Source: Caulobacter vibrioides
Lineage (GTDB): Bacteria > Pseudomonadota > Alphaproteobacteria > Caulobacterales > Caulobacteraceae
DNA length: 64,000 nt
Assembly: GCA_001449105.1 (NCBI GenBank)
Contig: LNIY01000095.1
Span: 1 to 64,000, forward strand
Direction of reading: 5' to 3'
A model generated the notes under the pieces. That model had not been told where the DNA came from. It worked only from the letters and a program-made list of their open reading frames with translations, and ran no database searches. The position numbers were made by a program, and so were the translations under genes. The stretch's first letter is position 1, and every line of letters begins with the position of its first letter. This document shows positions 33,936 through 59,271 of the stretch, one piece after another.

Positions 33936-35498
<1,563 letters not shown>

Positions 35499-35829
35499 TG
35501 ATTAGAAAAATAAAAGTAAAAGCAATACCTTATATTAAATATTGGTGATCGGGGGCTGAGTTGTCAATGAGGCGAAGGGCTAGATTCAGTACCTAAAAGC
35601 ACTGATCTAGACCTTCCGGTGGCCCATATGGGGGGCATGTAAAAATTGTTTTGACGGCATTTGTGAGGATGGCCCACTAACTGGGGCGCTCCCATGTTCA
35701 GGCTAGAGACTCTGCCATTGTCGCGAAATTGAATATGCACGGGATCAATTAATTCACTAATCCCGCCAGATCAGTCGGCTGCTGGCGCTGAAGAGCTTGT
35801 GGAGACAACCGCGCAAACCAGCGGGCGGG
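35499..35829. other. AT-rich gene-free junction downstream of guaA
   Basis: In these 331 bases I see no credible gene. The first 50 are very AT-rich (AAAAATAAAAGTAAAAG, TATATTAAATATTGG), unlike anything nearby. A hairpin, CTAGATTCAGT (35580-35590) and ACTGATCTAG (35601-35610) with one bulged base and a ten-base loop, lies inside. The area separates guaA from the convergent accessory cassette and looks like an integration scar or degraded island edge. I found no integrase and no obvious copy of the guaA 3' end at the far side of the cassette. Confidence 0.6.
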
Positions 35830-38535
35830 CTATTTGCCCGAGGGGGGCATGTCAGCCTGAGCTACCGGTACGCTAACGGTGATCTCGACGCGCCGGTTCA
35901 ATGGTTCCTTATCGGGTTTGTCGGTGATCACAGCAGGATCGCGAGCTCCACGCGCTTCCTGCGCAATGATCCCCCTATCGACACCCAGCGCTACGAGCGC
36001 GCTCGTCACGGCCTGCGCCCGGTATTCGCTGATCCGGAGCGCGGCTGCTGAGGAGGCCAAGCCATCGTCATGTCCCACCACAAGAATACGGCTTGCTTTG
36101 GCCCTGTTCGCATAGGCGGCAGCTACGCTCACGAGACTCTGCGCTTCCGGCGTTAAGACGTATTGGTCAAACGGAAAAAACACCGTGAAGCCCCGGGCCT
36201 CGGTGTCCAGGCCTTCATCGGGTGTCGAATACCCCTGAATCTGGTTCTCGGTTGCCCGATCGATCCGGCGGATCGTCGCCAGGTCTCCCGTCCGCATGGC
36301 TTCTCGCAGAGCGTCGATGTCGGCTTGGTACACTGTACCCTCGCCCTCCTGCAGACGAGCTAGACGGTTGAGGGCGATCTGTCCCTCGATCCGGGCCAGT
36401 TTGAAAGTTGACGAGCTTCCGCCCGTGCTTGTGGCGCGGGCAGGGTCACTTGTTGTTGGCGAGGCGTCGCCGCCGACATGACCAACCGGTGTGCCGGGTA
36501 GACTTGGCGTTGAGGGGGACGTTGAGGAGGGTGTGGTGGTCGGGGATGAGGCGGTGTCGCTATAGAGCGGTTGGACCCACATCGCCACGGAGGCGGCGAG
36601 CACGGCGACGGCGATGCTGATCAGGGCGGGGCTGCGGGCGGCCTGGCGCAGTCTCTCGATGAGGCCGGGGGCCGCCGGCGTGGCCAGCTTGTCGGGCGCG
36701 CGGCCGTCGATGGCGTCAATCAGAAGCGGGTCATGCAGGTCGCTGTCTTCAGATTGGCGCAGCCAGTGGATGAGGAGGTCGGGGCGGCGCGGCGGCCGGC
36801 TGACATGGTGGCGCAGCGCCTCGGTGTCGGAGACCAGGAAGGCGTGAACCATCCGCACGGTGGCTCGCAGATCCTTGTGCGAGAGGTCGCGCGCGAGCCG
36901 CTCGCGCAATTGGTCGGGCATACGGCCGGCGCGCAACCAGGGCAGGCGCACGATCCGCAGCAGGGAGTCATCGTTGAGGAGGCAGCTGCGGCCGTCGGCG
37001 GTCTTCAGGGTCTTGCCGAGCGCCAGGGTCAGGGTGGGTTCAAGGCGGGGGAAGACGGCGAGAGCACGCAGCAGGCGCATCAGGTCCTCGCCCAGCCAAG
37101 TCTTCAAATCCTCCAGGAGGCCGTCGATCAAATCCTCGTCGAGGGGCTCGGCGCTGAGCAGCATGGCGCGGTGGCGGGACAGCTGAAACGGCAGGTCCAG
37201 CCGAGGCGGTTGGGATGGGGCGGTCGCGGGCGCTCCGCCGCCCACCATCAGCCAGTCTGCATAGCGGCGAACCCCGTCTGGGGTCGCCGGGAGCACCGCA
37301 AGGCCGGCACGGCGCAACGCCGCCTCGTCGCCTGCCCAATCGGACTCTGCCCGCGGATCGAGCACCGTGACCTGCCCGCCGATCGCCAGATCTTCCAGCC
37401 AGTCGACCGGTTCGCCGGTGGGCCGCACCAGTCGGTCGGTCTCGGCGAGCACCAGGGTGCGGGCGCCGCTGACGCCCGCCGTAAGCTCGGACAGAAGGGC
37501 CGGGCGCTCGGCGGGAGTGTCGAGGTTGGCCAACTGCCGTGGCCGACGGTTGAAGGCGTAGCGAGTGACCGCGGCGTGCTGGCGGCGCAGGCGACGCGCG
37601 AGCATTTCGCCCACCAGCGGCAGGTGGTCGCGTGGGCCCTCGCGGTCGATCAGCAGCAGATAGCCGGGTATCCTGGGGCGCGCGCCGAACCGCAGGGTCG
37701 GATATCCGGCGTTGCGCACCGTGGCGCGAAGACTGCGGCGAATGTTCAGGCGTGAGCCGGGAGCGCTGCTGTGGCGCGCCAGGCTGAGCATGGAGCGCAA
37801 CACTTCCTGGCCGCCGAAATAGTCGCCGAGCGCGGCGCCGAGCGCGACCGGGCGCGAGGTCTCGGGCGTCGGCCGGAAGGCGCGCTGCTCGCGCCGCAGC
37901 AGCAGGAGCAGGACGGCGCTCATCGTCAGGCCGAACAGGAGGGGGATCAGGCCCAGAAGCGCCCAGGGGCCAAGGTCGAACTTGAGAACCCAGCCGACAG
38001 GGTCGTGCCTTATGTCGATGAGGAGGCGCACCTGCGGCGTCGCGAGGTTTGGTGTCGGCGGCGGCGCGATCCCCGGCAGCGGAATTTCCCGACCGTTCAG
38101 GAGAAGGATGAGGAGGCCCAGCGCCACGAGGACGATCGCGCCGACCAAGCCGAGGACGAGGGCGTCGCGCCGGTCGCGCCGGAGATTCTCGTCAACCTCG
38201 GGCGTTGCCCGCCGGCGGGGCGGCGGAGGCTCGGATCTGGCGCGTCTGACCGACAGTCGCGGTGCGGGCGGAGCGACATCGGCCCTGAGTTCCTGGAACC
38301 GGGCCAGGAACTGGGCCTGTTCCTGAGGCGAGCTGCAGAAGACGGGCGACAGCCAGCGGGCGAAAGCCGCGTCGGTGGGAGCGATGCCGTGGTGATGCAA
38401 CGTCGCGCGAACCTCGTGCAACCGAAGCTGCTCGGCCGTTGAGAGCTCGAACTCCACGATCAGCCGCTCGACCAGGATCTCTTCCGGGGACGGCGGAGCC
38501 GGATCAGCTCCACTGACATTGGTGGCGACTGACAT
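35830..38535 (-). CDS. Three-pass membrane protein with vWA-like and periplasmic OmpA domains (MoxR partner)
   Basis: A 901-residue protein. Residues 1-120 are cytosolic (helical EILVERLIVEFELSTAEQLR, then a proline/arginine-rich stretch); membrane helices lie at about 125-146 and 190-213. Residues about 235-455 look like a von Willebrand A fold (GYLLLIDREGPRDHLPLVGE), but the DxSxS metal site is missing. A third helix at about 635-658 is followed by a Ser/Thr/Pro linker and an OmpA-like peptidoglycan-binding domain (FFPFDQYVLTPEAQ to LNRRVEITV). Topology would put the vWA part in the cytosol and OmpA in the periplasm. It starts 14 bases after the MoxR gene, so it is probably that ATPase's membrane partner. 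Confidence 0.82.
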   Translation of the reverse strand: MSVATNVSGADPAPPSPEEILVERLIVEFELSTAEQLRLHEVRATLHHHGIAPTDAAFARWLSPVFCSSPQEQAQFLARFQELRADVAPPAPRLSVRRARSEPPPPRRRATPEVDENLRRDRRDALVLGLVGAIVLVALGLLILLLNGREIPLPGIAPPPTPNLATPQVRLLIDIRHDPVGWVLKFDLGPWALLGLIPLLFGLTMSAVLLLLLRREQRAFRPTPETSRPVALGAALGDYFGGQEVLRSMLSLARHSSAPGSRLNIRRSLRATVRNAGYPTLRFGARPRIPGYLLLIDREGPRDHLPLVGEMLARRLRRQHAAVTRYAFNRRPRQLANLDTPAERPALLSELTAGVSGARTLVLAETDRLVRPTGEPVDWLEDLAIGGQVTVLDPRAESDWAGDEAALRRAGLAVLPATPDGVRRYADWLMVGGGAPATAPSQPPRLDLPFQLSRHRAMLLSAEPLDEDLIDGLLEDLKTWLGEDLMRLLRALAVFPRLEPTLTLALGKTLKTADGRSCLLNDDSLLRIVRLPWLRAGRMPDQLRERLARDLSHKDLRATVRMVHAFLVSDTEALRHHVSRPPRRPDLLIHWLRQSEDSDLHDPLLIDAIDGRAPDKLATPAAPGLIERLRQAARSPALISIAVAVLAASVAMWVQPLYSDTASSPTTTPSSTSPSTPSLPGTPVGHVGGDASPTTSDPARATSTGGSSSTFKLARIEGQIALNRLARLQEGEGTVYQADIDALREAMRTGDLATIRRIDRATENQIQGYSTPDEGLDTEARGFTVFFPFDQYVLTPEAQSLVSVAAAYANRAKASRILVVGHDDGLASSAAALRISEYRAQAVTSALVALGVDRGIIAQEARGARDPAVITDKPDKEPLNRRVEITVSVPVAQADMPPSGK

Positions 38536-38549
38536 TGGCCTAGTCCCGC

Positions 38550-39734
38550 TCAGCGCCAGCTTGGGCTGTCGGGCAAGGCGGCGCCCCTGGCTTCCCTGGG
38601 CCTGCCCCGCGCCCCCTCCATCCACTTCGTGATCATATCCAGGCCAGCCCTCTGGTCGTCGGCCTGCTTGAGCAGAGCCGTCAGGCTCTGGGCGAGCTGG
38701 TCGCGCTGCTTGCGGCCCCAGGCCTTCAATCCTGACCCCGCCCCTAGCCGGGCCAGCACCTCGGACCAGGCCAGCAGTTCGGCCGTACCCGGCTTGCGGT
38801 GGATGGCGTCCTGGCTGGAGTGCAGCAGGTCGGCCACCTCCACGACCTCGTTTATGAGGTTTTCGCTGACGGACCGGCCCTTCAGCGATCCTTGTAGGAT
38901 AGCCTTCAGGGTCTCGCCGCGGACGCGAGGGACGTCGAAATAGGCGCAGCGACGTAGAAACGGTTCGGGCAGCGGCTTTTCAGCATTGCTGGTGATCACC
39001 ACGATGGGACGCACCTTGCGGTCGGTCTTCACCCGCAGGCCCAACTCGGCGATCAGGAAGGTCATGTTCTCGACTTCCACGAGGAGGTCGTTGGGGGTGT
39101 CGCGCGGCGCCTTGTCGAGCTCGTCGATCAGCACCACGCGCACCTCGCGCCCGCGGAACGGCTGGCGGAAGTCAGCGTCGTCCGGAAACAGGTCGCACAC
39201 CCGCACCTCGTCGCCTGTCGGCTGCCAGCCGGGCCCGAAGGCGTCGTCCAGCAGCTTGCGGTGGCGCTGGATCACGTCGCCCCCCTTGAGCTCTTCGCCG
39301 CCCACCGTCCAGAGCACCGAGTTGGGTCCGGCGGCGCGCACGATGCCATAGCCGAGCGCGTTGAAGCGGAGATAGCGTACCAGTGGCTTCACATCGAATT
39401 GGGGCGTGCGCCCCGCAGCGGCGTCGCGGAAGCGGGCGACGTCGTCGAAGGCGTAGAGCAGGTCGGCGCCCAGCGTTGTGGACTTCACGTCGAAGCGAAG
39501 AACCTCGTTGGCGTTCAGATGATGGGCCAGCCACTTGGCGGCTTGGGTCTTGCCTGCGCCGGGCGCGCCGGTAAGCACGATAGGCTCGCCCAGCATCATG
39601 GCTACATCCACGGCCTCCTTGAGGCCCGGCGGCGGGTTGTAGTTGACCGGGTCGTCATGCCTAGCGGTCAGCGGCTCGCACAGCTTCAACGGGTCCGTTG
39701 ACTCGAGCGCGAGGAAATGGGGCGGTGATTGCAT
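38550..39734 (-). CDS. MoxR-type AAA+ ATPase
   Basis: A 394-residue AAA+ ATPase. Walker A GAPGAGKT at residues 56-63, Walker B VVLIDELDKAP at about 200-210, sensor 1 in VVITSNAEKP and arginines RR at 261-262. MoxR proteins work as chaperone-like or remodelling ATPases with vWA partners. The ATG at 39734 follows the trypsin-like gene stop by two bases; an upstream ATG at 39767 lies within that gene. Central enzyme of the four-gene accessory cassette. The C-terminal 100 residues are helical with an Arg-rich tail. Confidence 0.9.
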   Translation of the reverse strand: MQSPPHFLALESTDPLKLCEPLTARHDDPVNYNPPPGLKEAVDVAMMLGEPIVLTGAPGAGKTQAAKWLAHHLNANEVLRFDVKSTTLGADLLYAFDDVARFRDAAAGRTPQFDVKPLVRYLRFNALGYGIVRAAGPNSVLWTVGGEELKGGDVIQRHRKLLDDAFGPGWQPTGDEVRVCDLFPDDADFRQPFRGREVRVVLIDELDKAPRDTPNDLLVEVENMTFLIAELGLRVKTDRKVRPIVVITSNAEKPLPEPFLRRCAYFDVPRVRGETLKAILQGSLKGRSVSENLINEVVEVADLLHSSQDAIHRKPGTAELLAWSEVLARLGAGSGLKAWGRKQRDQLAQSLTALLKQADDQRAGLDMITKWMEGARGRPREARGAALPDSPSWR

Positions 39735-39736
39735 CA

Positions 39737-41305
39737 CTATTCCTGCGGGTTGAGTTGCGAGAGCCAATGGCGGAGCTGGTTGAGGCGCGGCATGGCGCCC
39801 GAGGCGAGGAGTTCGCTGGTGGCGCGGGTGTGCAGTTCAAAGACTTCAGTTTCCCGCAGCGGGACATGTTCTGCTACCTCCTCGAGCCAGTCCTGGAGGT
39901 CGCGATCGTCGACACAGGCGAGGAGGCCGGCATTGACGACCACCACCTGATCTCCGTGGCTAGCGAGGCTGGAGACGCGCTCGCGCAGAGCCTCCTCGTT
40001 GACAGGTCCGTTTTGCGAGGACGGCTTGACGCAGAGCAGGTGGACCAAGGCGCGGTTCAGAGGCTCTTCGGCGATCTGCGCCCAATAGGCTGACCAGCCC
40101 TTGAGCAACTCCACGTCCGGCGCGTCGAGCTGGTCCGCGAACAGTTCAGAGTACAGGGTCTTGGAGCAGGAGCTGGCGCGCAGGGCGGCGCGGACGTCCG
40201 ACGGCGCGGTGGATTCCGCATCGAGGGCCCGCATCAGCCGGCGCTTCAGGAATTTAAGCGCCTCGTCCGCGCTCTGTCCGGGCATGCGCCATGTCGCTTC
40301 CTCACGCTTCCACTTGGGCGGCAGCCGCACGATCTCGCCCCGGGTGTAGACGCCAGCCTCGACCAGGAAATGGCTCTGGAAACGGTCGAAGAGGTGTTCC
40401 GGCAAGTCGTCGTCCTGGCTGCCGAACACTCCAATCACCGGCTGCCGACCGGTGCGGCCGACGAAGGTCGCGTCCTCGAGAGGTTGAAAAACGTGGGTTC
40501 GGTCGCAGTTGTGCAGGTATCGCGCGAGGCGAGCACGGAGCGGCGTTCGCCGCCATTGGTCCTCGTCACCAATCACCGTGTTGCTTGGGGGGGCGTCCTG
40601 GCTCGCCAAGGTGCCCACGAGCGTTTTTGTCGGCGGCGGCAGCTGCCACGCTTCCGCGATCTTGGGCGCCCTCAGCAGCATGTCGATTGGGATGAACAGG
40701 CCGGTCTGCTTCTGCTGCCGCTCGGCCACCATGCCCAGCACGCCGTCGTCCGAGCGGACGCCCGCGCCCGAGCATCCCGGCACGATCTCATCGTCGTTGA
40801 CGAGCGCCCGGATAGTCATCCGGTTACCGACGACCGCGCCACGTACCCGGCCGTTGAAGTTGATCCCGCCTTGCTCGTCGGCCGAGACGCCGTTGCCCCA
40901 AACCTCTGTTCTAGACTCGGGCTTGGGACCACGGCGGGCAATGACCACGTCGGCGGGCGGGATGAAGGTCTCGGGAAGCAACTCAAGCAGCGCAACATCG
41001 TCCAGATCGGACCGGGCGCGAACCTCGCTGGATTGCGGCCACCAGGCGGCTATCCGGGCGGTGATCGGTTGAGGCCAGAGGTTACTAAAGGCGAAGGCGA
41101 GCGTGATCGGCGCCTGTGGGGGAGCGGGGTTGTCGATCCAGGCGTCCGTATCACCGAGGGACTCGGCCACCACGTGGGCGCAGGTCAGTACATGGCGAGG
41201 GCCGATGAGGAAGCCCATGCCGACCCGGACCCCCTCGACGTTCTCGGGGCTGCCCGCAAGCAGGATGTGGACATCGATCTCGTCGAAGCCTGGAAAGTCA
41301 CTCAC
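39737..41305 (-). CDS. Trypsin-like serine protease with C-terminal STAND-like region
   Basis: A 522-residue cytosolic protein without signal peptide. Residues 1-210 form a chymotrypsin-fold protease: H44 in VLTCAHVV, D102/D103 in LDDVALLELL and S179 in PGCSGAGV make a complete catalytic triad. The rest begins with HVFQPLEDATFVGRTGR and VIGVFGSQDDDLPEHLFDRF, resembling the inactive STAND (iSTAND) type regions described in predicted conflict systems, although no Walker A is visible. It is two bases from the MoxR gene. Inference: a protease effector gated by the MoxR ATPase. Confidence 0.8.
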   Translation of the reverse strand: MSDFPGFDEIDVHILLAGSPENVEGVRVGMGFLIGPRHVLTCAHVVAESLGDTDAWIDNPAPPQAPITLAFAFSNLWPQPITARIAAWWPQSSEVRARSDLDDVALLELLPETFIPPADVVIARRGPKPESRTEVWGNGVSADEQGGINFNGRVRGAVVGNRMTIRALVNDDEIVPGCSGAGVRSDDGVLGMVAERQQKQTGLFIPIDMLLRAPKIAEAWQLPPPTKTLVGTLASQDAPPSNTVIGDEDQWRRTPLRARLARYLHNCDRTHVFQPLEDATFVGRTGRQPVIGVFGSQDDDLPEHLFDRFQSHFLVEAGVYTRGEIVRLPPKWKREEATWRMPGQSADEALKFLKRRLMRALDAESTAPSDVRAALRASSCSKTLYSELFADQLDAPDVELLKGWSAYWAQIAEEPLNRALVHLLCVKPSSQNGPVNEEALRERVSSLASHGDQVVVVNAGLLACVDDRDLQDWLEEVAEHVPLRETEVFELHTRATSELLASGAMPRLNQLRHWLSQLNPQE

Positions 41306-41479
41306 CGCCCACCCTCAGACCGCCATGGAGACGCCGCGTAATGGACACTCAAACCGATCTGGCTACCCACGCCTTCGGGTCCAAGGCCAGGTCCATTATC
41401 GCCCCTTGAAGCCAAGGGTCGGTGCAATGGGTCAGGGTTGTCAATCCCGCTGAGCACCACCCTTGAGGGCGCTGGCCGG

Positions 41480-44400
41480 TCAGGTTTGCACTCGGGCATA
41501 GGGATGGCCGTAGACGCTGTAGGCAAGCCAGGTGGATTCGCCGTGGGCCTTGGCGGCCTCGCGCGCCGCCCTGGTCGCGTGGACCACGGCCTTCCCCGCC
41601 TTGAGCTGCTCGTAGAAGGTCCGCGAGAAGACCAGGGCGGTGTGGTCCGCCACCGACCAGAGCGTGCCGACGAACAGGCCCGCCCCCTGACGAACGAAAG
41701 CCTGCGCCAGCCCGCCAGCGCCGCTCAGACCATAGCCGCCGACGCCGGTTTGGCAGGCGTTCAGAAAGATGATCGGCTTCACCCCATCGCTGGCGAGGTT
41801 GGCGTAGCTGCGCACCGCCGCCAGTGACAGTTCCTCGCGCGCCACGCGGCCACCGCGCTGGAAGCCCTCGAGCAGCAGGCCGGAGTTCCAGATGCGGTCC
41901 GGATCTGCGCTTCCGTGGCAGGCGAAGTGAAGGATGTCGAAGTCCTGCCCGGAGGTGCGGCCGAGCGCCGAGAGAACCGGTTCAATGTGGGGGGCCACGG
42001 GCCGGGCGCCGAGCACTTCGCTCACCATGGCCACTTCGTCTGGCTGGCTGGGGAGGCTCAGATTCGGATCGAGATAGTCGGGGATGCAGTAGAGCGCACG
42101 ATCCTCGCGCAGGCGGAGACGGGCGGGCGCGACACCCACGTTGGTGATCCACCGGGTCAGGCCGAGCTCGGCCAGGAACTTACCCCCGGCCAGCGGCATG
42201 CTCCGCGAGTCCGGATCCAGTATCCAGGCGACCTCCCAGGGGATGGAGGGCTCTTGAGCGAAAACCTGCAGGCTGCCGATCTGGTCGCGGCGGTTCCAGA
42301 TCAGGCGCTGAAGGTCCCTGGGCAGGAGCCGGAACAGTTCTGCTCCCTCAGCGCGGATCAGCATCATCAGCGGCTCGAAATCTCCGCTGCTGTCGGTCCA
42401 ACTGTTCTCAAGGCGCTTGTAAAGGTCGCGGATATAGCTGGTCTTGTCGATGCGTTGCCAATCGGTCTCGTACTCGTCCTCGATGCCGAGCTCGGGTGCG
42501 CTGACCAGGAAACGCAGGCGCCACAGACCGTTGTCGCCGCCCTCCTCGAGGATGCGCAGGTCGACGATGGGAGGATCCAGATCCTGCGGAGTCATGGTGG
42601 CGCTGGCGGCGATGGCGCCGGTGGAGACGAACACCGGCTGGAGCACGACGCGGGTCAGCCGCCGATTGTCGAGGAAGACATCGGCCCAGACCTCGGCCAT
42701 GCCGGGCGCGACGCCCTGCACCTGGAAGCCCAAGACTTCCGGAGCGCCCGGCTTGGGGGCGTCGACCCAGGTGGCGTCGTCTCCGACAATCCGGCAGTTG
42801 ACCCGCGCGGCCACCCGCACGAGCAGTCGGGCCGCCTTGGCCACGGGGATGAGCGCCTCGGCGCGGACCTGACCCTCTACGGCGGCGATCTCCTCGCGCG
42901 ACAGGGTGACCTCAAGCATTGTGGGCCGCTCCAGGGCGGGCGTTTCCGGCATCGAGGCGGTCACATGGCATGGCGGGACGGTGGCCGGTGGCGGCGACTC
43001 GGCCTTCGTCAGTTCCAGCTCGGCTGCGCCGCTGTCGCCCGAGATCGCGGCGCTGGCGGCCATAGCCCTGAGATCGCGACCACGGGTGGTGCGCCGAGAC
43101 GAGCCTGTGACGTCCGCAAGATTGGCGCTGACCGCCCTGCGGGTCGAGCGAGCAAGGCGCGGCGTCGAGGGGGCGGACATGGCCGGGGGCGGCGACGTTT
43201 CGAAAGCCGACGGCGATTCCACCGGCCCGCGCGTGCGGCGCGGGACCACCAACTCGGCTGGCAGCGGCGGCAGGCCTAGCCAGGCGAGCAGTCGCTCGGA
43301 GGTCTCCGGCGCGGTGAAGTAGACCGTATGATAGATGGTCTCGACGTCGCCGAACGGGTAGGTGTCGGTCAGCCAGCCAGAGCGCTCTCCGAAGTTCGTC
43401 ATGGACTCGGTGTCGACCACCAAGTCGTTGGGCTGCCCCCCCCATAGATCGTTGGTGACCCGATCGAGCAGCACCTGGGCCAACTCCTTTGAGAGGCCGC
43501 GACGAAGCTCGAAGTGGGGAACGAAGTTCGAGGTGATCGCGTGATAGGCCGGCGCCGCGTCGCCGCGGAACGGGATCGCGCCCAGCCGGCGCACGGTCTC
43601 GCCATCGGGCTGCATGGAGGCCAGGCCTGGAACGCGGCGCTCGTTGATGGCCACCTGGGGCAGCATCTGGACGAACTCTCCCAGGGTCTTGACGCCCAGG
43701 CGCACCAGCGGGTCCAGCGGCGCACCGGCCAACAGGGTCACCGCCCGCGCCCCGGCCATGATGGCGTTGGTATAGAGGTCGGCCAAAGCCTCCCAGTTGG
43801 CCGGGCTGGACAGGTGTGTGCCGGCGTTCGTGCAGCCAACGAAGACGGCGCGGCCCAGGCGAAGGTCAGGGCGGCTGGCGGCGAAGATCTCGTCGAACAG
43901 CACCCGCAACACCAGGCCGCCGCGGCTGTAAGCGATGGCGTCCACCTGGGCGCCGGGCGGGAGGCCGGCGAGCGCGTCGGCCATCAGCTCGGCGTTGGCC
44001 TCCACGCTCTGGGCGAGAGTCTTGTGATCGAAGCCCAGCACGGCGTCATAGGCGTCGAGGGCGGCGTTCAGGAAGAACTGTCCTGCCGGATGTGCGCAAA
44101 GGTGGCCGAAGCTGCCGGAGGTGTTCGAGAAGGTCCCATGCACCAGCAGAAGTACGCGCATCGGCCGGTCTGCCGGCGCGACCGGAACGGTCGCCTGGCC
44201 GGGGCGCCAGGTTTTCGGATCGGCGGCGGTGACGCGCACCAGTCCGCCGGGGCTATCCCCCTCGATGCGCGCCATCACCGCGTCGATGGTTAGGCGGATG
44301 GCGAATTTCAGCACCACTGCGCGGATCGGCTTGGTGAGGCGGTCCACCACCCAACCGAGGGGGGAGCGAGTGACGCGCCCACGCGGAGGCGCCGCGCCAA

Positions 44401-44812
44401 TGGTGAAGGTTAGGGCTCCGGCCTCGGCGCTGCGGGTGACGCGACCTTCACCTGCCTCGTTGGCTTGCAGCCAAGCGTAGGTCCCTTCCTCGGTTTCCAC
44501 CAACACAACGGCGCTCTCGCCAGCGCCGACGGCGACGCTTACCCGGACAGCTTCATCGTCGCCTTCCGCGCGAACGGAGCGGCGTTCTGCGGCAGGAGGT
44601 TCCAGGCTCACGTCCGCGGCCACGGTGAGTCCCGAGGCGGCGAGCGCGGCGAGCATCACGTCGTCCCCGGGCGTTGCACCTTCCGCGCGGGTGCGCCGAC
44701 GGGTGCGACTGCCGGCATCATCGCTCGAGAGGATTCTGACTACTACGTCGTCCGGCGTCTCGAAGACCACTTCGCTAGAGCCGCCCGCGCCAACGGTCCG
44801 CACAGTCCGCAT
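41480..44812 (-). CDS. Alpha/beta-hydrolase - CHAT protease fusion protein
   Basis: A 1,110-residue protein joining two putative enzymes. Residues about 215-515 are a lipase-like alpha/beta hydrolase: oxyanion strand VLLLVHGTFSNTSG and nucleophile S296 in AIAYSRGGLVLR. A low-complexity Ser/Thr/Arg linker and a beta-rich central part follow. The C-terminus is a CHAT (caspase-HetF-associated) protease: H966 in DILHFACHGSAD and C1020 in FLNACQTGVGG form the dyad. I start at ATG 44812; a TTG 15 bases upstream is also possible. There is no signal peptide. It is first in the cassette, 174 bases before the trypsin-like gene. Confidence 0.85.
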   Translation of the reverse strand: MRTVRTVGAGGSSEVVFETPDDVVVRILSSDDAGSRTRRRTRAEGATPGDDVMLAALAASGLTVAADVSLEPPAAERRSVRAEGDDEAVRVSVAVGAGESAVVLVETEEGTYAWLQANEAGEGRVTRSAEAGALTFTIGAAPPRGRVTRSPLGWVVDRLTKPIRAVVLKFAIRLTIDAVMARIEGDSPGGLVRVTAADPKTWRPGQATVPVAPADRPMRVLLLVHGTFSNTSGSFGHLCAHPAGQFFLNAALDAYDAVLGFDHKTLAQSVEANAELMADALAGLPPGAQVDAIAYSRGGLVLRVLFDEIFAASRPDLRLGRAVFVGCTNAGTHLSSPANWEALADLYTNAIMAGARAVTLLAGAPLDPLVRLGVKTLGEFVQMLPQVAINERRVPGLASMQPDGETVRRLGAIPFRGDAAPAYHAITSNFVPHFELRRGLSKELAQVLLDRVTNDLWGGQPNDLVVDTESMTNFGERSGWLTDTYPFGDVETIYHTVYFTAPETSERLLAWLGLPPLPAELVVPRRTRGPVESPSAFETSPPPAMSAPSTPRLARSTRRAVSANLADVTGSSRRTTRGRDLRAMAASAAISGDSGAAELELTKAESPPPATVPPCHVTASMPETPALERPTMLEVTLSREEIAAVEGQVRAEALIPVAKAARLLVRVAARVNCRIVGDDATWVDAPKPGAPEVLGFQVQGVAPGMAEVWADVFLDNRRLTRVVLQPVFVSTGAIAASATMTPQDLDPPIVDLRILEEGGDNGLWRLRFLVSAPELGIEDEYETDWQRIDKTSYIRDLYKRLENSWTDSSGDFEPLMMLIRAEGAELFRLLPRDLQRLIWNRRDQIGSLQVFAQEPSIPWEVAWILDPDSRSMPLAGGKFLAELGLTRWITNVGVAPARLRLREDRALYCIPDYLDPNLSLPSQPDEVAMVSEVLGARPVAPHIEPVLSALGRTSGQDFDILHFACHGSADPDRIWNSGLLLEGFQRGGRVAREELSLAAVRSYANLASDGVKPIIFLNACQTGVGGYGLSGAGGLAQAFVRQGAGLFVGTLWSVADHTALVFSRTFYEQLKAGKAVVHATRAAREAAKAHGESTWLAYSVYGHPYARVQT

Positions 44813-44843
44813 CTCGCCCCCGCTCAACTAATCCGTGCTTCTT

Positions 44844-45275: not shown

Positions 45276-46904
45276 ATGATCCGCCTCGACAACATCTCCA
45301 AGCAAAACGGCCACCAGATCCTGTTCATCGAAGCTTCGATGGGCATCCAGAAGGGCGAAAAGGTCGGGCTCGTCGGCCCGAACGGCGCCGGCAAGACGAC
45401 GCTGTTCCGCATGATCACCAGCCAGGAGCAGCCCGACGACGGGCTGGTCGCGATCGATGCCGGAATGCGGATCGGCTACTTCAGCCAGGACGTCGGCGAG
45501 ATGTCGGGCCAGAGCGCGGTCGCCGCGGTGATGGACGGCGTCGGTCCCGTCAGCGCGCTGGCCGCCGAGATGGCCGCGCTGGAGGCCGCCATGGTCGATC
45601 CGGACCAGGCCGACCAGCTGGACGCCGTCATGGAACGCTATGGCGAGGTGCTGGAGCGCTTCCAGGAACTGGACGGCTATGCGTTGGAAGCGCGCGCCCG
45701 CGAGGTGCTGGCCGGCCTGAGCTTCAGCCAGGAGCGCATGGACGGCGACGTCGGCATGCTGTCCGGCGGCTGGAAGATGCGCGTGGCGCTGGCCCGCATC
45801 CTGCTGATGCGGCCCGACGGCATGCTGCTGGACGAACCCTCCAACCACCTGGACCTGGAGAGCCTGATCTGGCTCGAGGCGTTCCTCAAGAACTACGACG
45901 GCGCGCTGCTGATGACCTCGCACGACCGCGCCTTCATGAACCGCATCATCGGCAAGGTGGTGGAGATCGACGCCGGCTCGCTGATCACCTATTCGGGCGA
46001 TCTCGACTTCTACGACCAGCAGCGGGCGCTCGGCGAAGCCCAGCGCCAGGCGCAGTACGAGCGCCAGCAGGCGATGCTGGCCAAGGAAATCAAGTTCATC
46101 GAGAAGTTCAAGGCGCGCGCCTCGCACGCCGCCCAGGTCCAGAGCCGGGTGAAGAAGCTCGACAAGATCGAACGCGTCGAGGCTCCGCGCCGTCGCCAGG
46201 CCGTTCAGTTCGAGTTCCAGAGCCCGCCGCGGTCGGGCGAGGACGTGATCAGCCTGCGGGGCGTCCACAAGGGCTACAGCGACAAGCCGATCTACGAAGG
46301 CCTCGATTTCCTCGTGCGCCGCAAGGAGCGCTGGTGCGTGCTGGGCGCCAACGGCGCCGGCAAGTCGACCCTGCTGAAGCTGGTGGCCGGCGACGCCAAG
46401 CCCGACCAGGGCGCGGTCCACATCGGCGCCAGCGTCAAGATGGGCTACTTCGCCCAGCACTCCATGGACCTGCTGGACGGCGAGGAGACGATCTTCGAGT
46501 CGCTGGAACGCTCGTTCCCGCAGGCCGGCCAGGGCGCGCTGCGCACCCTGGCGGGCTGCTTCGGCTTCTCCGGAGACGACGTGGAAAAGCCTTGCCGCGT
46601 CCTGTCCGGCGGCGAGAAGGCGCGCCTGGTCATGGCCAAGATGCTGTTCGATCCGCCGAACCTGCTGGTGCTCGACGAACCGACCAACCACCTCGACATG
46701 GCGACCAAGGAGATGCTGGTCGCGGCCCTGGCGGACTTCGAGGGCACGATGCTCTTCGTCTCGCACGACCGCCATTTCCTGGCGGCCCTGAGCAACCGCG
46801 TGCTGGAGCTGACGCCCGAGGGCGTCCACCAGTACGGCGGCGGCTACACGGAATATGTCAGCCGCACCGGCCAGGAAGCGCCGGGGCTGCATCCGGGCGG
46901 CTAG
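45276..46904 (+). CDS. ABC-F family ATPase (translation factor type)
   Basis: Soluble tandem-ATPase protein of 542 residues without membrane domain. Walker A motifs GPNGAGKT at 34-41 and GANGAGKS at 357-364, signatures LSGGWKMRVALARIL and LSGGEKARLVMAKML, and Walker B MLLDEPSNHLD and VLDEPTNHLD. The interdomain linker is moderately long, helical and charged (residues about 235-315). The family acts on the ribosomal E site (EttA, Uup, YheS, antibiotic-resistance ABC-Fs); subgroup YheS/Uup-like is my best guess. It separates the two accessory blocks. Confidence 0.93.
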   Translation: MIRLDNISKQNGHQILFIEASMGIQKGEKVGLVGPNGAGKTTLFRMITSQEQPDDGLVAIDAGMRIGYFSQDVGEMSGQSAVAAVMDGVGPVSALAAEMAALEAAMVDPDQADQLDAVMERYGEVLERFQELDGYALEARAREVLAGLSFSQERMDGDVGMLSGGWKMRVALARILLMRPDGMLLDEPSNHLDLESLIWLEAFLKNYDGALLMTSHDRAFMNRIIGKVVEIDAGSLITYSGDLDFYDQQRALGEAQRQAQYERQQAMLAKEIKFIEKFKARASHAAQVQSRVKKLDKIERVEAPRRRQAVQFEFQSPPRSGEDVISLRGVHKGYSDKPIYEGLDFLVRRKERWCVLGANGAGKSTLLKLVAGDAKPDQGAVHIGASVKMGYFAQHSMDLLDGEETIFESLERSFPQAGQGALRTLAGCFGFSGDDVEKPCRVLSGGEKARLVMAKMLFDPPNLLVLDEPTNHLDMATKEMLVAALADFEGTMLFVSHDRHFLAALSNRVLELTPEGVHQYGGGYTEYVSRTGQEAPGLHPGG

Positions 46905-46942: not shown

Positions 46943-47257
46943 CTAAGGCTTGGCGTTGTCGATGGGCGCGGCGCAGGCCTTGAGCGCGGCCTCCAGGACC
47001 TTCTCCCGGCCCTGCCGCTGCTCGCGGCCGATCAGCAGGAGCTTGACCTTCTGGTAGATATCGCCCGCCGCCTTCAGGGCGTCGGCGGTATCGGCATACT
47101 GAGGCGTGGGCGGAAGTTCGGGCTGGCAGGGCACCGGGATCTTCTCGACCACGGTCTTGATCTCGACCTGCTTGACGGGCGGCGGCTGGGTCGATGCGCA
47201 GGCGGCGGCGGACGCGGCGATCAGCACGATCGCCGCCAGGCGGGACAGGGTCACCAT
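46943..47257 (-). CDS. Phage Rz1-like lipoprotein (putative outer-membrane spanin)
   Basis: A 104-residue lipoprotein: MVTLSRLAAIVLIAASAAAC ends with a lipobox cysteine, followed by a proline-rich segment (STQPPPVKQVEI, KIPVPCQPELPPTPQY) and a helical tail with VLEAALKACAAP. This layout recurs in small lipoproteins of alphaproteobacterial phages encoded after an Rz-like gene. It starts 11 bases after the gene for the coiled-coil partner. The ATG at 47257 gives a proper signal peptide; a longer frame to 47314 does not. Confidence 0.7.
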   Translation of the reverse strand: MVTLSRLAAIVLIAASAAACASTQPPPVKQVEIKTVVEKIPVPCQPELPPTPQYADTADALKAAGDIYQKVKLLLIGREQRQGREKVLEAALKACAAPIDNAKP

Positions 47258-47268
47258 CGGGAGGTCCT

Positions 47269-47709
47269 TCACTGGGTTATGGCAAGGTCGATGGCCGCGT
47301 TCGCGGCGTCGCACCGGTTGACGCTCTTGGGCGGGTCGGCAAGCAGCTTGCGCAGCCTTTCCTCGCTGCGGGCAGCCTTCTCCAAGGCCTTCTGGACCGC
47401 GATCTGGGCCGCTTCGACCTGAGCTTCCGCAGCGACCTTGTACTTCTTGATGCTGATGTTCTGGGCGGCGATGGTCGCGTCGAGCTTCAGCCGGTTGGTC
47501 GAGCAGGTCGCAAGGTCGGTACGAAAGCGATCGCGATCGGCGCTCACCGCGGCGAGGGCCTTCTGGGCCTTGCCGGCCCTATGCTCGGCCCCGATCAGCT
47601 TGAAGCCCAGCACGACGACGGCGATCAGCAGCAGCGCCGAGACGACCGATCCGACGAGCCCCGCGATGGGCCCGCGCAGGAAGCCCAGAAGGGCTGACAA
47701 AGAGAGCAT
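47269..47709 (-). CDS. Phage Rz-like single-pass coiled-coil protein (putative inner-membrane spanin)
   Basis: A 146-residue protein with an N-terminal membrane helix (LVGSVVSALLLIAVVVLGFK) and a long alanine-rich coiled coil, ending in KSVNRCDAANAAIDLAI, a cysteine-containing tail like those of phage Rz proteins. With the lipoprotein gene directly downstream this is the standard order of i-spanin and o-spanin genes, which fuse the two membranes during lysis. No holin or endolysin is seen nearby. Start ATG 47709; an upstream ATG at 47775 adds 22 unlikely residues. Confidence 0.7.
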   Translation of the reverse strand: MLSLSALLGFLRGPIAGLVGSVVSALLLIAVVVLGFKLIGAEHRAGKAQKALAAVSADRDRFRTDLATCSTNRLKLDATIAAQNISIKKYKVAAEAQVEAAQIAVQKALEKAARSEERLRKLLADPPKSVNRCDAANAAIDLAITQ

Positions 47710-47829
47710 CGATTTCCCCCCGAAGGCTCCGAATGGAGCCGGACAGTGAACCAGCGGCGCCTCGCGGCATGGCAAGCGCGCCAGGAAGAGCGGCCCGGAC
47801 CGCCGCGCGGGGAGGTCCGAGTGATGGGC

Positions 47830-49149
47830 CTAGGCCGGCGGCGCGGGCGCCTGGACCCAGCCGTTCCAGTCGCCGCCCGGCCAGGCCTGGTCGATGGTCC
47901 AGACCCGGTCCTGGGCGTCGACAGCCGTCAGGGCGACGTTGCCGGTGTTCTGCAAGGCGGCCGCCAGCAGCCGCATCGGCGCCGGCTGGCCCAGGAAGCC
48001 CGGGCCCTCCCAGTTGCTCCACGGCCCGCCGGCGGTCAGCTGGTAGAGGGTCCATATCTGGCCGTCCTCGCCCAGCGCCCAGAGCTGGACGCCGCGCGAG
48101 CCGCGCTGTTCGGACGCCGTGATCTCGATGAACGGGCAGGGCTGGTTGGGAAAGTCCTGCCAGGCGTTCCAGTCGCCGCCCGGCCAAGCCTGGCCGATCC
48201 CCCACAACTTGGCTTGCAGGTCGAGAGACCAGAGCCAGACGCAGCCGTTGTTCTGCTGGGCCGCGGCGATCTTCTTCATCTGCCTCGGCTGATCCTTGAA
48301 GCCGGGTCCCTCCCAAGCGCTCCAGGGTCCATTGGGGGTCAGCTGGTAGAGGGTCCATATCCGGCCGACCGGATCGACGCCCCAGAGTTCGACGCCCCGG
48401 TCGCCGCCTTGCTGCGACGCGGCGATCTCCTGCATGGCCAAGGGCTGTGACGGGTTGGGCGCCTCCCAGGCGTTCCAGTCGCCGCCGGCCCAGCCCTGCG
48501 GGATCGACCAGACCCTTCCGCCGGTGTCGAGCGTGAACAGTCGCACGGTGGCGAAGCTCTGGTTGGAACCTCCCTCGGGCGGGGGGCCGTCGTTCTGCTG
48601 CGCGGCCGCCAGCTTCTGGAACACTTCGCCGCCGGGCTGGCCCTTGAAGCCGGGCCCCTCCCAACCGCTCCAGTCGGCGCCGGGCCGCGTCTGGTAGCGC
48701 GTGGAGATCTGACCGCTCGGCCCGACCACCCACAGCTCCACGCCGCGATCCCCGCCCTGCTGGGAAGCGGTGATCGCGGTGATCGCCGGCGGCTGTGGTT
48801 GAGGTTGCGGTTCAGGCTGAGGTTGGGGCTCCGGCTGGGGGTGGGGTTCCGGCTCAGGCTGCGGTTGCGGCTCCGGTTCCGGCTGGGGCGTGGGCGGGAA
48901 GCAGGCGTCGGCGGCGCCGGTGACGTCGGCCTCGCTGAACCGGCCGACGCCGCTCAGCAGGGCGACGAGGCCTTGGCGATCGGTGGCGGGAAAGGCCTGG
49001 GCGTCGAGCAGGCAGCCCGCCAGCCCGGTGGCGTCCAGCGTCGGGAAGGCGGCCGCCACGGCCGGCGCGACTTCCGCGGCCGGATAGCCGGCAGCGACCA
49101 GCGCGCGCGTGATGTCCAGCGGACTGGCGGGCGGAGGCGAATTGGGCAT
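47830..49149 (-). CDS. PLL-like beta-propeller lectin with helical-repeat head
   Basis: A 439-residue protein in three parts. Residues 1-84: a helical region (DITRALVAAGYPAAEVAPAV) like the repeats at the C-terminus of the giant neighbour. Residues 85-121: a Pro/Gln/Glu linker of alternating P. Residues 122-439: six blades of about 53 residues, alternating ITASQQGGDRGVELW type and IAAAQQNNGCVWLW type, each ending in GGDWNAW or GPWSAWEGPGF. This matches PLL/PHL-type bacterial propeller lectins, which bind fucosylated or O-methylated sugars. No signal peptide. It follows the giant gene by 13 bases. Confidence 0.78.
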   Translation of the reverse strand: MPNSPPPASPLDITRALVAAGYPAAEVAPAVAAAFPTLDATGLAGCLLDAQAFPATDRQGLVALLSGVGRFSEADVTGAADACFPPTPQPEPEPQPQPEPEPHPQPEPQPQPEPQPQPQPPAITAITASQQGGDRGVELWVVGPSGQISTRYQTRPGADWSGWEGPGFKGQPGGEVFQKLAAAQQNDGPPPEGGSNQSFATVRLFTLDTGGRVWSIPQGWAGGDWNAWEAPNPSQPLAMQEIAASQQGGDRGVELWGVDPVGRIWTLYQLTPNGPWSAWEGPGFKDQPRQMKKIAAAQQNNGCVWLWSLDLQAKLWGIGQAWPGGDWNAWQDFPNQPCPFIEITASEQRGSRGVQLWALGEDGQIWTLYQLTAGGPWSNWEGPGFLGQPAPMRLLAAALQNTGNVALTAVDAQDRVWTIDQAWPGGDWNGWVQAPAPPA

Positions 49150-49162
49150 CAGGCGATTTCCA

Positions 49163-52100
49163 TCAGGCTAGGGTGGCGATGAGGTCTTGGCCACGGGTCC
49201 AGGCGTCGGCGGCCGCGGCCGCGTCGACGCCGGAAACCAGGACCAGCAGGGCGGCTTCGACGTCGGCGCGGACCGCGCCTCCGGCGGACGCGGCGGCGGC
49301 CAGCAGCACGGGCTGCGAGGCCAGCGGGTCGTAGGCGCGGATCAGGACGACCATCCGTGCGCTCGCCGACAGGCCCTCGAAGGCCGGCAGGGCGGCGCGG
49401 GCCGCTGCGACCGGTGAGCCGGCCGCCTGCGACAGCGACGCCAGGGCCTCGACCGACCCCTGCGGCGCGAAGATCGCCAGCAGGGCCGAGGCGCGCTCGC
49501 CGGCGTCGGGGTCCAGGCCGAAGGCGATGTCGGCCAGTTCCGAAAGCTGGGTCGGCGCGACGCCGACGGCGGCGAGGGCCAGGGCGAGCTGCTCCCGTGT
49601 CGCCCGGCTCGGGCCGAAGGCCGCGCAGAGAGCCGGGACGGCGGCGCGGACGCCGGTCGCAGGGGTGTTCCAGGCGTTGACAAGGGCGGCGGCGAGCACC
49701 GTGGCGGTGATGGCTGGGCGACGGGCCTTGACCTGCTGGGCGGCCGCCGAAACGGTCGCCCCCCTGGCGCGGAGCAGCACCAGCGGCAGGGTCAGGCCGC
49801 TGCCGTCGTCGAGCGAGGTCTCCCCGCCCAGGTTGGCGACCCGCAACACGCGGCGTGCGGCCGCCGAGGCAGGAACGCCGGCCTGGGCCAGGGTCTCGGC
49901 GTAGCTCGTCGCCATCGCCGGGTCCTGGTAGGCGGCGACCAGGGCCGCGGCCATTTCGGTCGCGCCGATGTTCGGGTTCAGGGCCCGCAGCTGGACGGCC
50001 GCGTCGTTCAGGCCAAGGCCGGCGGCGCGGAAGGCGGTCAGCAGCGTCGCCATGCTGTCGCCGTCGGGCGCGGCGGCCTTGAGCGCGCCGGCCAGATCGG
50101 CGAGCGTCGCCGCCGGGAAGGCCGCCTTCAGGATCGCGGCCAGGGTGACGGTGTCGATGGGCTGACCGGCGGCGGCCAAGCCCTGACGGGCGGCGGCGGC
50201 CGCTTCGGCCATCGAGCTCGCCGTCGCGGCCAGGCTCGTGGCGAGGCCTTCTGCGTCATGAACCAGGGCGAACAGCGCCGCGGTCTGGCCGGCGGCCGGT
50301 TCGGCGCGGTCGAGCGCGGCGGCCAGGGCCAGTCGCGCCGCGTTGTCGCCCAGTCCGTCGACGAGGCTCAGCGCCATGCGCAGAGGCGGCGTGGTCTTGC
50401 TCCAGAGCGCGGGCGCTCCGGGCAGGGCCAGCGCCCAGTCGGCTGATAGAATCAGGGGCGTGGGAGCCGGCCATTGGTAGTCGAGCGGCGCTGCGATCAG
50501 GATCGGCGGCGAGATATCCTGCACGCTATAGGACAGGCGCCGGACGATGGCGGCCGAGCCGGTCAGGCTTTCGCTCCGCTCGGCCGCGAAGGCCGCGACG
50601 GGGACGGCGCCGAGCGGCTTGTCGGCGTCGCCGGGCGCCAGGGTGAAGCTGACCTGGTCGCCGGGCAGGACCTGGCTGATCTGGAACGAAAGACCGGCCG
50701 CCGACTGGCCCTCGGCCGGCGACGCCAGGCTGAAGCTCATCAGCGCGCCGGGGATCTTGACGTCGATGGTCTCGGACCACACCGCGCCGTCGCCGGCGGG
50801 CGGCAGGGTGGCGACGCGGGCGTGGACCGTGCGTCCGGCCTGACCGCCGGCGCTGGTCTTGGCGTTCAGCGCCGTTCCGGCCTCGACCGAGGAGATCGGG
50901 GCGCTGGCCGTCGCGTCGTCGAGCAGTTGCAGGCGATAGCCGCCGGCGCCCTGGACGGCGCCCCAGTTCGCGGCGATGTCGAAGGTGTCGCCGACGAACC
51001 GTGCGCCGGTGACGGTCGGCGCGGCCAGGTCCAGCACCGTCAGGGTGTTCGATCGGGTCGTATAGCGCACGCCGCCGACCACGGCCGTCGCCTGCAGTAT
51101 GGCTTGGCCCGTGGGCGAGGGCGGGGCGAGGCGGAGCTGATGGCGTCCATGGGCGCCGCCGCCGGCCAGCGCCGGAGCGGCTGGATCGGGAGCGATCACC
51201 CCGCCTTGGGCGTCGACCCACTGCAGGACGATCTGGCCTGCGGTCTCATTGCCCTCGATGACCGTCGCCGAGACCGACGCGCCGATCTGCTCGATCGTCA
51301 CCTGGGCGATCGCGGAGTCGGGCATGTGGACGACCGCCGAAGCGACGCCGTCGGCCTGGCCCGGGACGCTCATGTCCAGGCCGCCGGAGAACTGGGGCTG
51401 CGGCCGCATATGGACCGCCGACCCTTGGAACATCAGGCCGTCCAGCTGCATCAGGGCGGTGACCACGACCTGGTAGTTGGCGCCGGCCCTCAGCAGGTCG
51501 TAGGCGACCGTCAGACTGGGGGCGTCGTCGCCGTGGTTCCAGTCGACCCGGTTGGACTGGCCGTTGCGCGGCGGAATGGCGATCGGCGCGCCGCCGCCGG
51601 CCGGGATCTCGAACAGGTCGAAACGGTAGGTGCAGCCATCGCCCTCGACGATGGACGGGGGCGGGACGCAGCCCATGGTCATGCTGTCGGCGCTGGCCGC
51701 GGCGAGGGACGCCGACAGGGGCTTGGCCAGGTTGGCGATCGCCTGGACGGCGCGGGCGCGCTGCTGTTCCGCGCGTTCCTTCTTCTTCTTGTCCTCGCCG
51801 GTGATCGAATCCCAGATGCTTTCGAGGAACGAGATCACCGCGCCGGCGATCACGAAGCCCGCGGCGAAGGCGACCATGGCCTCGGCCCAGGCCTCGGCCG
51901 CGACCGCCGCCTCGCCGGCCGCGAGGGACGCCTCGGCGTCCGCCGCGCCGACCTCGGTCTGGCGGCAGATGAGGTTGCTGATGATGCTCGAGGCCACCTG
52001 CCGGGCGATCAGCATCTCGGCGAAGGTCTTCATCGCCTCGGGATCGGAGAACAGCGCCTTGACGATGTTCGGGCCGGCGTTGACCAGGGCGGTCAGCAGC

Positions 52101-57907: not shown

Positions 57908-59271
57908 GCGGTTTTCGGAGCCTTGGGAGCGTTGTCGAGCCAGGGCGCGGCGGCCAGTGTGAACGGCGACGTATCGGCGAGATCCTGTGGCGGCTTCTTG
58001 CTGCCGAGCAGGGCCTGATACTGACTCCAGTGCTGGCCGATGTTGGCGGGCACCGGGGTGGCCTCAGGCTTGTGAACCACGACGATCAGATCCTCGTCGG
58101 TGGGATCGTAGGTCCAGTCGATGCGTGTCTTGATGCTGGATACGGGGGAGAATTGGGTGTGCGGTAGATGTCTCGTGGTGCGTGTTTGCCATCGGCCCGC
58201 CGTGGCCGTGAAGATCAGGGAAAAGGTGGGGACGTCCTTGGCGCGGCCGATCATGGGGATCGGCTTCACCCCTCCCGTGCCACGCCCCGTCGGGATGTCC
58301 CGGAAGGCGACTTTCGTGGACTGGTACCGATCGCCGTAGGCCGCTTGTACGGCGCTAAGCGCGTTTATCGCCGCGTCTCGCTCTATGCGCTCGAACGAGT
58401 CGTGGTCGATCTCCCAGATCGTGAGGACGAAGGCGCCGTTCACCCGATCGATACGTGCGACGAAAGCGTCGCGCTCGGCGGTCAGCAGGATGAGATAGGA
58501 CCCCGCCGCGAGGGCGTCGGCGATCGTGAGCGGCTGGTCCAGCGTGTCCTTGTAGATCTCCCGGACCAAGTCATACAGGGACGTGGACATCTTCTCGACC
58601 GGGACCACGGTGCGCACGGTCGCTGCGTCATCAATGCAGATCTCGGCGATCTGGGATTCCGCCACCAGAAAGGGTCGCACGACCGACCGCAGGGAGGCTA
58701 CCTGCGACACCTTGGCCCCATCGGCCGGGATGCTTTTCGGGTCCACAAATTCCGAGACGCCCGGCCGCATCGAGCCGTTGGGCATGGGATGCCAGAAGAC
58801 GTTCTGAAATTGCGGGTTGGGCAATCGGAGAAAGGCGTTGAACGGATAGAAAGGCGCGTCGGCCCTGGCGTCTCCGTCGCCCAACGCTCCCCCGAAGCGC
58901 GCGATGGCGTCGGTCTGCCCCATGAAATCCAGCGCCGTGTCGGGTTCCAGGGGAAGCGTATAGATGCCGAGACGGCTGAGGCCCGGCAACTGCTTCGGCG
59001 CGATCTTCGCCCCCAGGCACAGCGCCGATATGGTCTGCACGTAGCCCACGCGGTAGGGGGCGTATGGTTGAGAATCCAGCCCGTCGAAGAACGCCCGCAG
59101 GATGACCGTGGACGGGCTGGGCTGATAGGCCCCGGCGTAGTGCAGGCTGTTGTTGGAGACGATTTGCGCCGAAGTGGCCGCCGGTCCCACCGCGTCCACC
59201 GAGCCGGTGCCGGTCACGCCCGCGACGAACATCCATCCGTCGGCGTCGATAGCGCTTTGAAGTCTAGGCAT
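57904..59271 (-). CDS. Hypothetical protein of the giant-protein operon
   Basis: A 455-residue protein I do not recognise. It is soluble, without signal peptide or membrane helix. Aromatic, proline-rich segments (PFYPFNAFLRLPNPQFQNVF) are followed by a mixed alpha/beta half with VFVLTIWEIDHDSFER-like strands and a C-terminal KIKTRIDWTYD-like strand. It lies 10 bases after the metallo-hydrolase gene and overlaps the giant gene by 4 bases, so the three are surely co-translated. It may be a chaperone or base component for the giant protein, but nothing in the sequence proves that. Confidence 0.75.
   Translation of the reverse strand: MPRLQSAIDADGWMFVAGVTGTGSVDAVGPAATSAQIVSNNSLHYAGAYQPSPSTVILRAFFDGLDSQPYAPYRVGYVQTISALCLGAKIAPKQLPGLSRLGIYTLPLEPDTALDFMGQTDAIARFGGALGDGDARADAPFYPFNAFLRLPNPQFQNVFWHPMPNGSMRPGVSEFVDPKSIPADGAKVSQVASLRSVVRPFLVAESQIAEICIDDAATVRTVVPVEKMSTSLYDLVREIYKDTLDQPLTIADALAAGSYLILLTAERDAFVARIDRVNGAFVLTIWEIDHDSFERIERDAAINALSAVQAAYGDRYQSTKVAFRDIPTGRGTGGVKPIPMIGRAKDVPTFSLIFTATAGRWQTRTTRHLPHTQFSPVSSIKTRIDWTYDPTDEDLIVVVHKPEATPVPANIGQHWSQYQALLGSKKPPQDLADTSPFTLAAAPWLDNAPKAPKTA

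Follow-up and report, generated by a model that had tools for sequence, protein, structure and literature searches.

A probable divergent iSTAND-type MoxR-vWA gene cluster next to guaA in Caulobacter vibrioides, a candidate conflict system

We analysed a stretch of 64,000 nucleotides of Caulobacter vibrioides DNA (contig LNIY01000095.1, positions 1 to 64,000; hereafter the window) and focused on a cluster of four genes beyond guaA, which encode a hydrolase-CHAT fusion, a trypsin-like protease, a MoxR-family ATPase and a membrane anchor protein. The last three genes (hereafter the triad) look like a divergent member of a published, so far predicted class, the MoxR-vWA ternary systems with an inactive STAND (iSTAND) protein; the hydrolase-CHAT neighbour is a less usual element. 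The cluster as a whole is best explained as an accessory iSTAND MoxR-vWA conflict system working through the activation scheme given below, a reading that we hold with moderate confidence. The domains, the gene order, the topology by hydropathy, the relationship to the class and the accessory distribution are supported by computation. A first-pass annotation, made from the sequence alone, had proposed a MoxR-centred conflict system. This prediction is supported because the gene order is conserved in distant relatives, the distribution is accessory and the site is an integration hotspot; the membership of the hydrolase-CHAT gene, which the same proposal included, is unproven. The features are as follows.

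41480..44812, minus strand: alpha/beta-hydrolase (DUF7379), DUF7363 and CHAT (caspase-like) fusion, 1110 aa (from Pfam, motifs, PADLOC and the gap)
39737..41305, minus strand: third component, trypsin-like protease (residues ~1-222) followed by a probable, divergent iSTAND domain (~250-522)
38550..39734, minus strand: MoxR-family AAA+ ATPase, 394 aa from the ATG at 39734 (from AAA_5 and the identity to the Azospirillum MoxR)
35830..38535, minus strand: vWA-OmpA anchor protein, 901 aa (from the OmpA match, hydropathy, vWA relatives and predicted fold)
35499..35829, no strand: junction, likely island boundary, beyond the guaA stop codon (35498), where DNA similarity to relatives ends

The four long open reading frames (ORFs) were all found on the minus strand (35830-38625, 38550-39767, 39737-41305 and 41480-44827), and the ATG starts at 44812, 39734 and 38535 give intergenic gaps of 174, 2 and 14 bases, so the strand and the spacings given in the first-pass annotation were borne out. 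A promoter and terminator scan returned about as many sites as were found in shuffled sequence. The hydrolase-CHAT protein matched the Pfam domains DUF7379 (2.9e-54), DUF7363 (1.6e-18) and CHAT (9.5e-26). Its CHAT part has the motifs HFACHG and NACQTG, the second His and the Cys of which (H966/C1020, counted from the ATG at 44812) we take to be the catalytic pair, and its hydrolase part keeps the Ser elbow AYSRGG. The third component matched Trypsin_2 (3.4e-08), with H44, D103 and S179 placed by the motif AHV/DVALL/GCSGAG; the two proteases with intact active sites that had been described were thus recovered. The ATPase matched AAA_5 (3.7e-07) and carries GAPGAGKT and VVLIDE, in agreement with the intact Walker motifs reported earlier. 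The membrane protein, described earlier as having a peptidoglycan-binding domain, showed an OmpA match (1.5e-14, residues ~786-881) and three hydrophobic segments.

The available portions of Kaur et al. 2020 (PMC7159879) define the iSTAND ternary systems as a MoxR, a vWA protein and an iSTAND protein. There, the vWA protein tends to have a four-helix N-terminus of CoxE type, with N-terminal transmembrane (TM) segments in about 28% of cases, and C-terminal domains that include PEGA, OmpA, PASTA and Sel1, typically placed after a TM segment; the iSTAND protein carries N-terminal trypsin, caspase and other domains.

The iSTAND domain of the window trypsin protein, absent from the first-pass annotation, was detectable only via intermediate relatives. 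The Pfam iSTAND domain (PF19995) matched all 6 candidate iSTAND proteins scanned (from Nostoc edaphicum, Cylindrospermopsis, Azospirillum and the loci L039, L067 and L042), while the seventh trypsin protein scanned, from Nostoc sp. UHCC 0926, was a VMAP protein instead. A hidden Markov model (HMM) built on the C-terminal regions of three relatives (Azospirillum, L042 and L068) scored 18.6 bits against the window C-terminus, with 200 shuffles reaching at most 4.9, and a combined iSTAND HMM scored 19.5 bits versus 4.3 for shuffles. In hhalign comparisons, the profile of the three relatives matched 24 iSTAND proteins at 97.3% (local), the window protein together with the Azospirillum one matched the iSTAND profile at 95.6%, and the window protein alone matched the three relatives at 60.8%; reversed controls stayed below 1%. 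By eye, the region has no GK[ST] behind its first strand. Given the HMM score and the intermediate profiles, yet a weak direct match (see below), the domain is probably real but far diverged. The predicted model of the protein was of modest quality (pLDDT 64.8); the fold-search matches listed were trypsin folds covering the N-terminal half and carry no information on the remainder. No TM segment was detected in this protein by hydropathy scan. A first scan of genome contigs with the trypsin protein alone gave 21 pattern matches, none of them a relative.

The anchor protein comprises an N-terminal four-helix region (helices predicted at 17-28, 33-48, 56-66 and 70-87; the region is common to relatives), two TM segments, a vWA-like domain, a helical linker, a third TM segment, a Pro/Ser/Thr-rich linker and finally the OmpA domain. 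Counted from the ATG at 38535, the hydrophobic segments span residues 122-153, 188-206 and 632-659. The vWA part and the helical linker are predicted to be cytosolic and the OmpA domain periplasmic, judging from hydropathy and charge, because a basic stretch past the second segment is taken to face the cytosol. The vWA assignment relies on homology to the vWA components of PF19995-positive loci; no Pfam match to a vWA domain was obtained in this protein. In Foldseek searches with the predicted model (pLDDT 76.7), the best matches were three entries for NorQD chain G (E 7.4e-4 to 1.9e-3, probability 0.99-1.00), which we take to be NorD, the protein with a vWA domain that pairs with NorQ of the MoxR family. 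Relatives and predicted fold back the vWA domain of the first-pass annotation; a Pfam match and the DxSxS motif are both lacking.

Evidence for the triad also came from its relatives. A tblastn search of the anchor protein against plasmids gave 8 records, 5 matching the OmpA end only and 3 covering the middle of the protein (Azospirillum lipoferum, Nostoc edaphicum and Cylindrospermopsis curvispora). In all three the vWA gene is preceded by a MoxR gene, and before MoxR lies a trypsin protein in Azospirillum, with trypco2 ahead of it, or a hypothetical protein in the other two, with a caspase-family gene ahead of it in Nostoc edaphicum. Identity to the window was 50% (Azospirillum), 35% (Nostoc) and 36% (Cylindrospermopsis) for MoxR, and 33%, 27% and 24%, respectively, for the vWA region. 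An alignment of the four vWA regions led to 42 loci, spread over cyanobacteria, Acidobacteria, Bacteroidota, several groups of proteobacteria and other taxa. Seven of these had less than 2.5 kb upstream and were excluded; among the 35 scorable loci, MoxR lay at most 1.5 kb upstream of the vWA gene in 33 and the third component was recognisable by BLAST in 27. Because this search did not use MoxR, finding that gene adjacent counts as independent evidence. The neighbourhood search that had been suggested earlier thus shows conserved co-occurrence for the triad, not scattered homologues. Two further observations concern related loci: the gene table as distributed has no entry for a 765-aa ORF (L034:5019-7316) that is the vWA component of the plasmid system in Nostoc edaphicum, and genome G778 holds another MoxR-vWA cluster of the same class (L173:1098-9908), flanked upstream by a protein of 585 aa and downstream by one of 1075 aa.

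Several results weigh against the proposed reading. PF19995 does not match the window trypsin protein, and the C-terminus of that protein alone reached only 1.2-1.4% in hhalign against the 24-protein iSTAND profile. By eye, the vWA part has no DxSxS metal motif; its predicted fold aligns with NorQD chain G in part (TM-score 0.16-0.17 by query, with an rmsd of 11-12), and VIA-align Z values to vWA chains (5.7-7.3) were no better than those to receiver domains of response regulators. Across the 42 loci, no vWA protein has an OmpA match at its end, and the OmpA end was likewise unmatched by BLAST on the vWA proteins of further phylum-genome regions. The hydrolase part of the CHAT fusion had no phmmer match in the ORFs of the 42 loci. 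Of the four integrase matches in the own genome, none is on this contig. Finally, the literature on iSTAND ternary systems, as far as its available text goes, gives predictions, and no experiment was found there; no title or abstract reported an experimental test of such a system or of this combination, subscription literature being mostly outside that scope.

The distribution of the cluster is accessory. Among genomes of the genus and order, 1 of 101 has a match to the vWA profile; for the class the count is 1 of 385 and for the phylum 6 of 398 (own genome included each time). The trypsin protein was found in 1 of the 385 class genomes; the class and phylum scans scored at most 3 candidates per genome, so divergent copies may be missed. 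The first-pass annotation had named presence in the core genome of all relatives, with a housekeeping phenotype, as a finding that would speak against it; the vWA count in the genus and order is the opposite of that pattern. A housekeeping MoxR was considered and rejected: some MoxR match was present in 98 of the 101 genomes (own included), but outside the own locus the matches were partial, with 32-48% identity among the matches listed.

In all 19 loci from relatives, DNA similarity around guaA (stop codon at 35498) ends no later than position 35500; 18 of these loci extend beyond guaA (L143 by little). A tyrosine integrase domain starts ~0.93-0.97 kb past guaA in 5 of 10 relatives (sister genomes). 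A scan of 10 chosen ORFs from six relatives detected, near the integrase at the same guaA site of G012 (L156 9739-12874), matches to GajA (5.3e-202) and GajB (5.7e-165), the Gabija pair, and in G007 a HEPN-RES protein near the guaA-site integrase. Of the other seven ORFs, three from G001 encode a peptidase, a TonB receptor and a transporter; the rest comprise a DNA polymerase, a PAS-histidine kinase, an RHS-repeat protein and one ORF with no match. Given the integrases and GajA/GajB at guaA, the cluster lies at an insertion hotspot that holds anti-phage genes in at least one relative. In a search for an att repeat of the guaA end, no word of 14 or more bases was shared elsewhere in the window, and 53 pattern matches among viral contigs yielded no confirmed carriage by viruses.

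These data bear on an envelope maintenance or chaperone module, in which MoxR and the vWA protein would assemble or repair an envelope complex and the proteases would serve turnover. NorQ-NorD, which assembles or repairs its enzyme, is the model for such a function, and both the fold of the vWA part, closest to NorQD chain G, and the wall-binding type of domain would suit it. Nearly all sampled relatives are without the cluster, which argues against a housekeeping role, the genes are in an island position, and we know of no maturation system that fits two proteases plus an iSTAND domain; we consider this explanation very unlikely.

We then asked whether the hydrolase-CHAT gene belongs to the system. 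Its CHAT part matched the PADLOC models SAVED_CHAT (1.7e-07) and BovA (4.5e-07), the protein had no sequence match among solved structures at E 0.01, and CHAT occurs once in its own genome. The triad alone could be the system, with hydrolase-CHAT as an effector gene of its own that came to lie in the same island at guaA. This is quite possible, if short of probable. The 174-base gap, compared with 2 and 14 bases within the triad, and the location in an insertion hotspot would agree with it, as would the result that no ORF from the 42 loci or from four further genome regions matched the hydrolase part. BLAST of that part was run on additional regions from five genomes of the phylum and found nothing; one of these regions, L171, duplicates L066, and another, L172, runs into its contig end. 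Also in line with this reading, plasmids of Ruegeria, Paracoccus and Azotobacter encode hydrolase-CHAT proteins beside which the gene tables, themselves incomplete, annotate neither MoxR nor vWA. On the other hand, the gene lies directly upstream of the triad on the same strand, in the position that Trypco holds in several trypsin-type relatives and a caspase-family gene in some relatives, and CHAT-domain proteins of other designs were found upstream of the triad in L041, L046 and L047 (by a Pfam scan of ten chosen ORFs) and in L054 and L070 (by BLAST). A Trypco hidden in the gap was rejected: the longest minus-strand ORF across it has 74 codons, compared with 106-119 aa for the Trypco-type ORFs of relatives. 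No Trypco turned up in the gap or in the four proteins, to which this search was confined. In the available text of Kaur et al. (PMC7159879) on VMAP systems, trypsin frequently comes with Trypco, and caspase-like domains are tied to a neighbouring alpha/beta-hydrolase gene; a figure legend on MoxR-vWA systems there describes the two pairings as mutually exclusive. The tie between caspase-like domains and the hydrolase speaks for membership; trypsin directly after a hydrolase-CHAT fusion, as in the window, is the less usual feature. On balance, we think it somewhat probable that the hydrolase-CHAT gene is a member of the system and a candidate second peptidase or effector. The four-gene system claimed in the first-pass annotation therefore stands for the triad, by conserved order, while in no sampled relative does a hydrolase-CHAT fusion lie beside the triad.

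In the activation scheme that accompanies the preferred reading of an iSTAND conflict system, the vWA protein would span the inner membrane and its OmpA domain would probably grip peptidoglycan, holding the complex at the wall, with the cytosolic vWA domain as a presumed dock for the MoxR ATPase and the trypsin-iSTAND protein. The trigger may be either a disturbed envelope, sensed through the OmpA end, or a molecule of an invader that binds to iSTAND. MoxR and vWA would set the threshold, and MoxR with ATP would remodel the complex so that trypsin is switched on first; hydrolase-CHAT would act as a second protease or hydrolase effector, activated by trypsin or with it, and the infected cell would be stopped or killed.

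Published models disagree on which end senses and which acts. In the available text of Kaur et al. (PMC7159879), the third component coordinates sensing and the vWA C-terminal domains are effectors, with proteolytic release predicted in some systems, whereas a 2024 PNAS paper on VMAP systems (PMC10907252) proposes, in its accessible part, the vWA C-terminus as sensor and the peptidase as the acting component. Applied to the window, the former model would have a peptidase cut the vWA protein and free its C-terminal OmpA part. We judge this unlikely here, as hydropathy places OmpA past the third TM segment, on the opposite side of the membrane from a trypsin without TM segments; a cytosolic cut before that segment is possible, but OmpA would stay in the membrane. 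A role of OmpA as anchor or sensor would fit better than that of a released effector, because a periplasmic wall-binding domain cannot be freed by a cytosolic trypsin, and the predicted location beyond the reach of a cytosolic protease favours the vWA C-terminus as sensor (the PMC10907252 model). A more specific form of the preferred scheme is a peptidoglycan-tethered tripwire, in which OmpA would sense a wall breach or phage entry, MoxR would relay the signal via the membrane-anchored complex, and a protease cascade of two steps would follow, with trypsin acting first and CHAT then freeing the lipase-like hydrolase fused to it, killing the cell. We offer it tentatively and regard it as rather doubtful. 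If true, the cluster would represent an iSTAND system that senses the wall, with trypsin and hydrolase-caspase, described as mutually exclusive, working in series. Whether or not this form holds, the cluster is a compact set for testing the sensor question, and its trypsin and hydrolase-caspase may act in series.

Other genes of the window were also recorded. An ABC-F type ATPase (45276-46904, plus strand) has 92-98% identity in 15 other genomes of the genus; DNA similarity stops just outside the gene, which in G010 lies ~105 kb away from guaA. Two small overlapping minus-strand genes (46943-47775) match phrog_3580 and phrog_3774 and look by eye like a lipoprotein and a membrane protein; as a guess, they may form a lysis or spanin-type pair. 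The minus-strand genes of a GC-rich stretch include a 2914-aa ORF with no Pfam match at E 0.01 (49163-57907), a repeat-rich protein of 439 aa (47830-49149) and a protein of 455 aa (57904-59271) that likewise has no Pfam match.

Finally, we compared the cluster with known systems. The anchor protein has a working resemblance to ZorB of Zorya, being a membrane protein with an OmpA-type domain (PADLOC ZorB3 0.00088, OmpA part only), but none of the four proteins matched ZorA, ZorC or ZorD, and the window has two proteases and a MoxR instead. Zorya and Ietas were both rejected, their PADLOC matches being weak and local only. NorQ-NorD pairs (of the CoxD-CoxE type) consist of a MoxR-family ATPase and a vWA partner, and the window vWA part matches the NorQD chain G fold; the window vWA protein differs in being membrane-bound with an OmpA domain, and proteases are added. 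The VMAP ternary systems share MoxR, a vWA-type partner and a trypsin-fused third component, but VMAP-C and VMAP-M are missing from the window trypsin protein, whereas the same library found both in a Nostoc protein (VMAP-C 7.8e-33); this class was rejected. The closest relative is the Azospirillum lipoferum 4B plasmid locus (AZOLI_RS19150-19135, L033), with trypsin-iSTAND, MoxR (50%) and vWA in the same order, which has Trypco2 in place of hydrolase-CHAT and a vWA protein ending, by eye, in a long hydrophobic region. The first-pass annotation did not recognise the set as a named system. Although its iSTAND domain lies below Pfam detection, a hydrolase-CHAT fusion lies upstream and no Trypco was found, the triad, with trypsin at the N-terminus of the third component, a MoxR, and OmpA at the C-terminus of a vWA protein that has TM segments, matches the iSTAND MoxR-vWA ternary class as it appears in the available text of Kaur et al. 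(PMC7159879).

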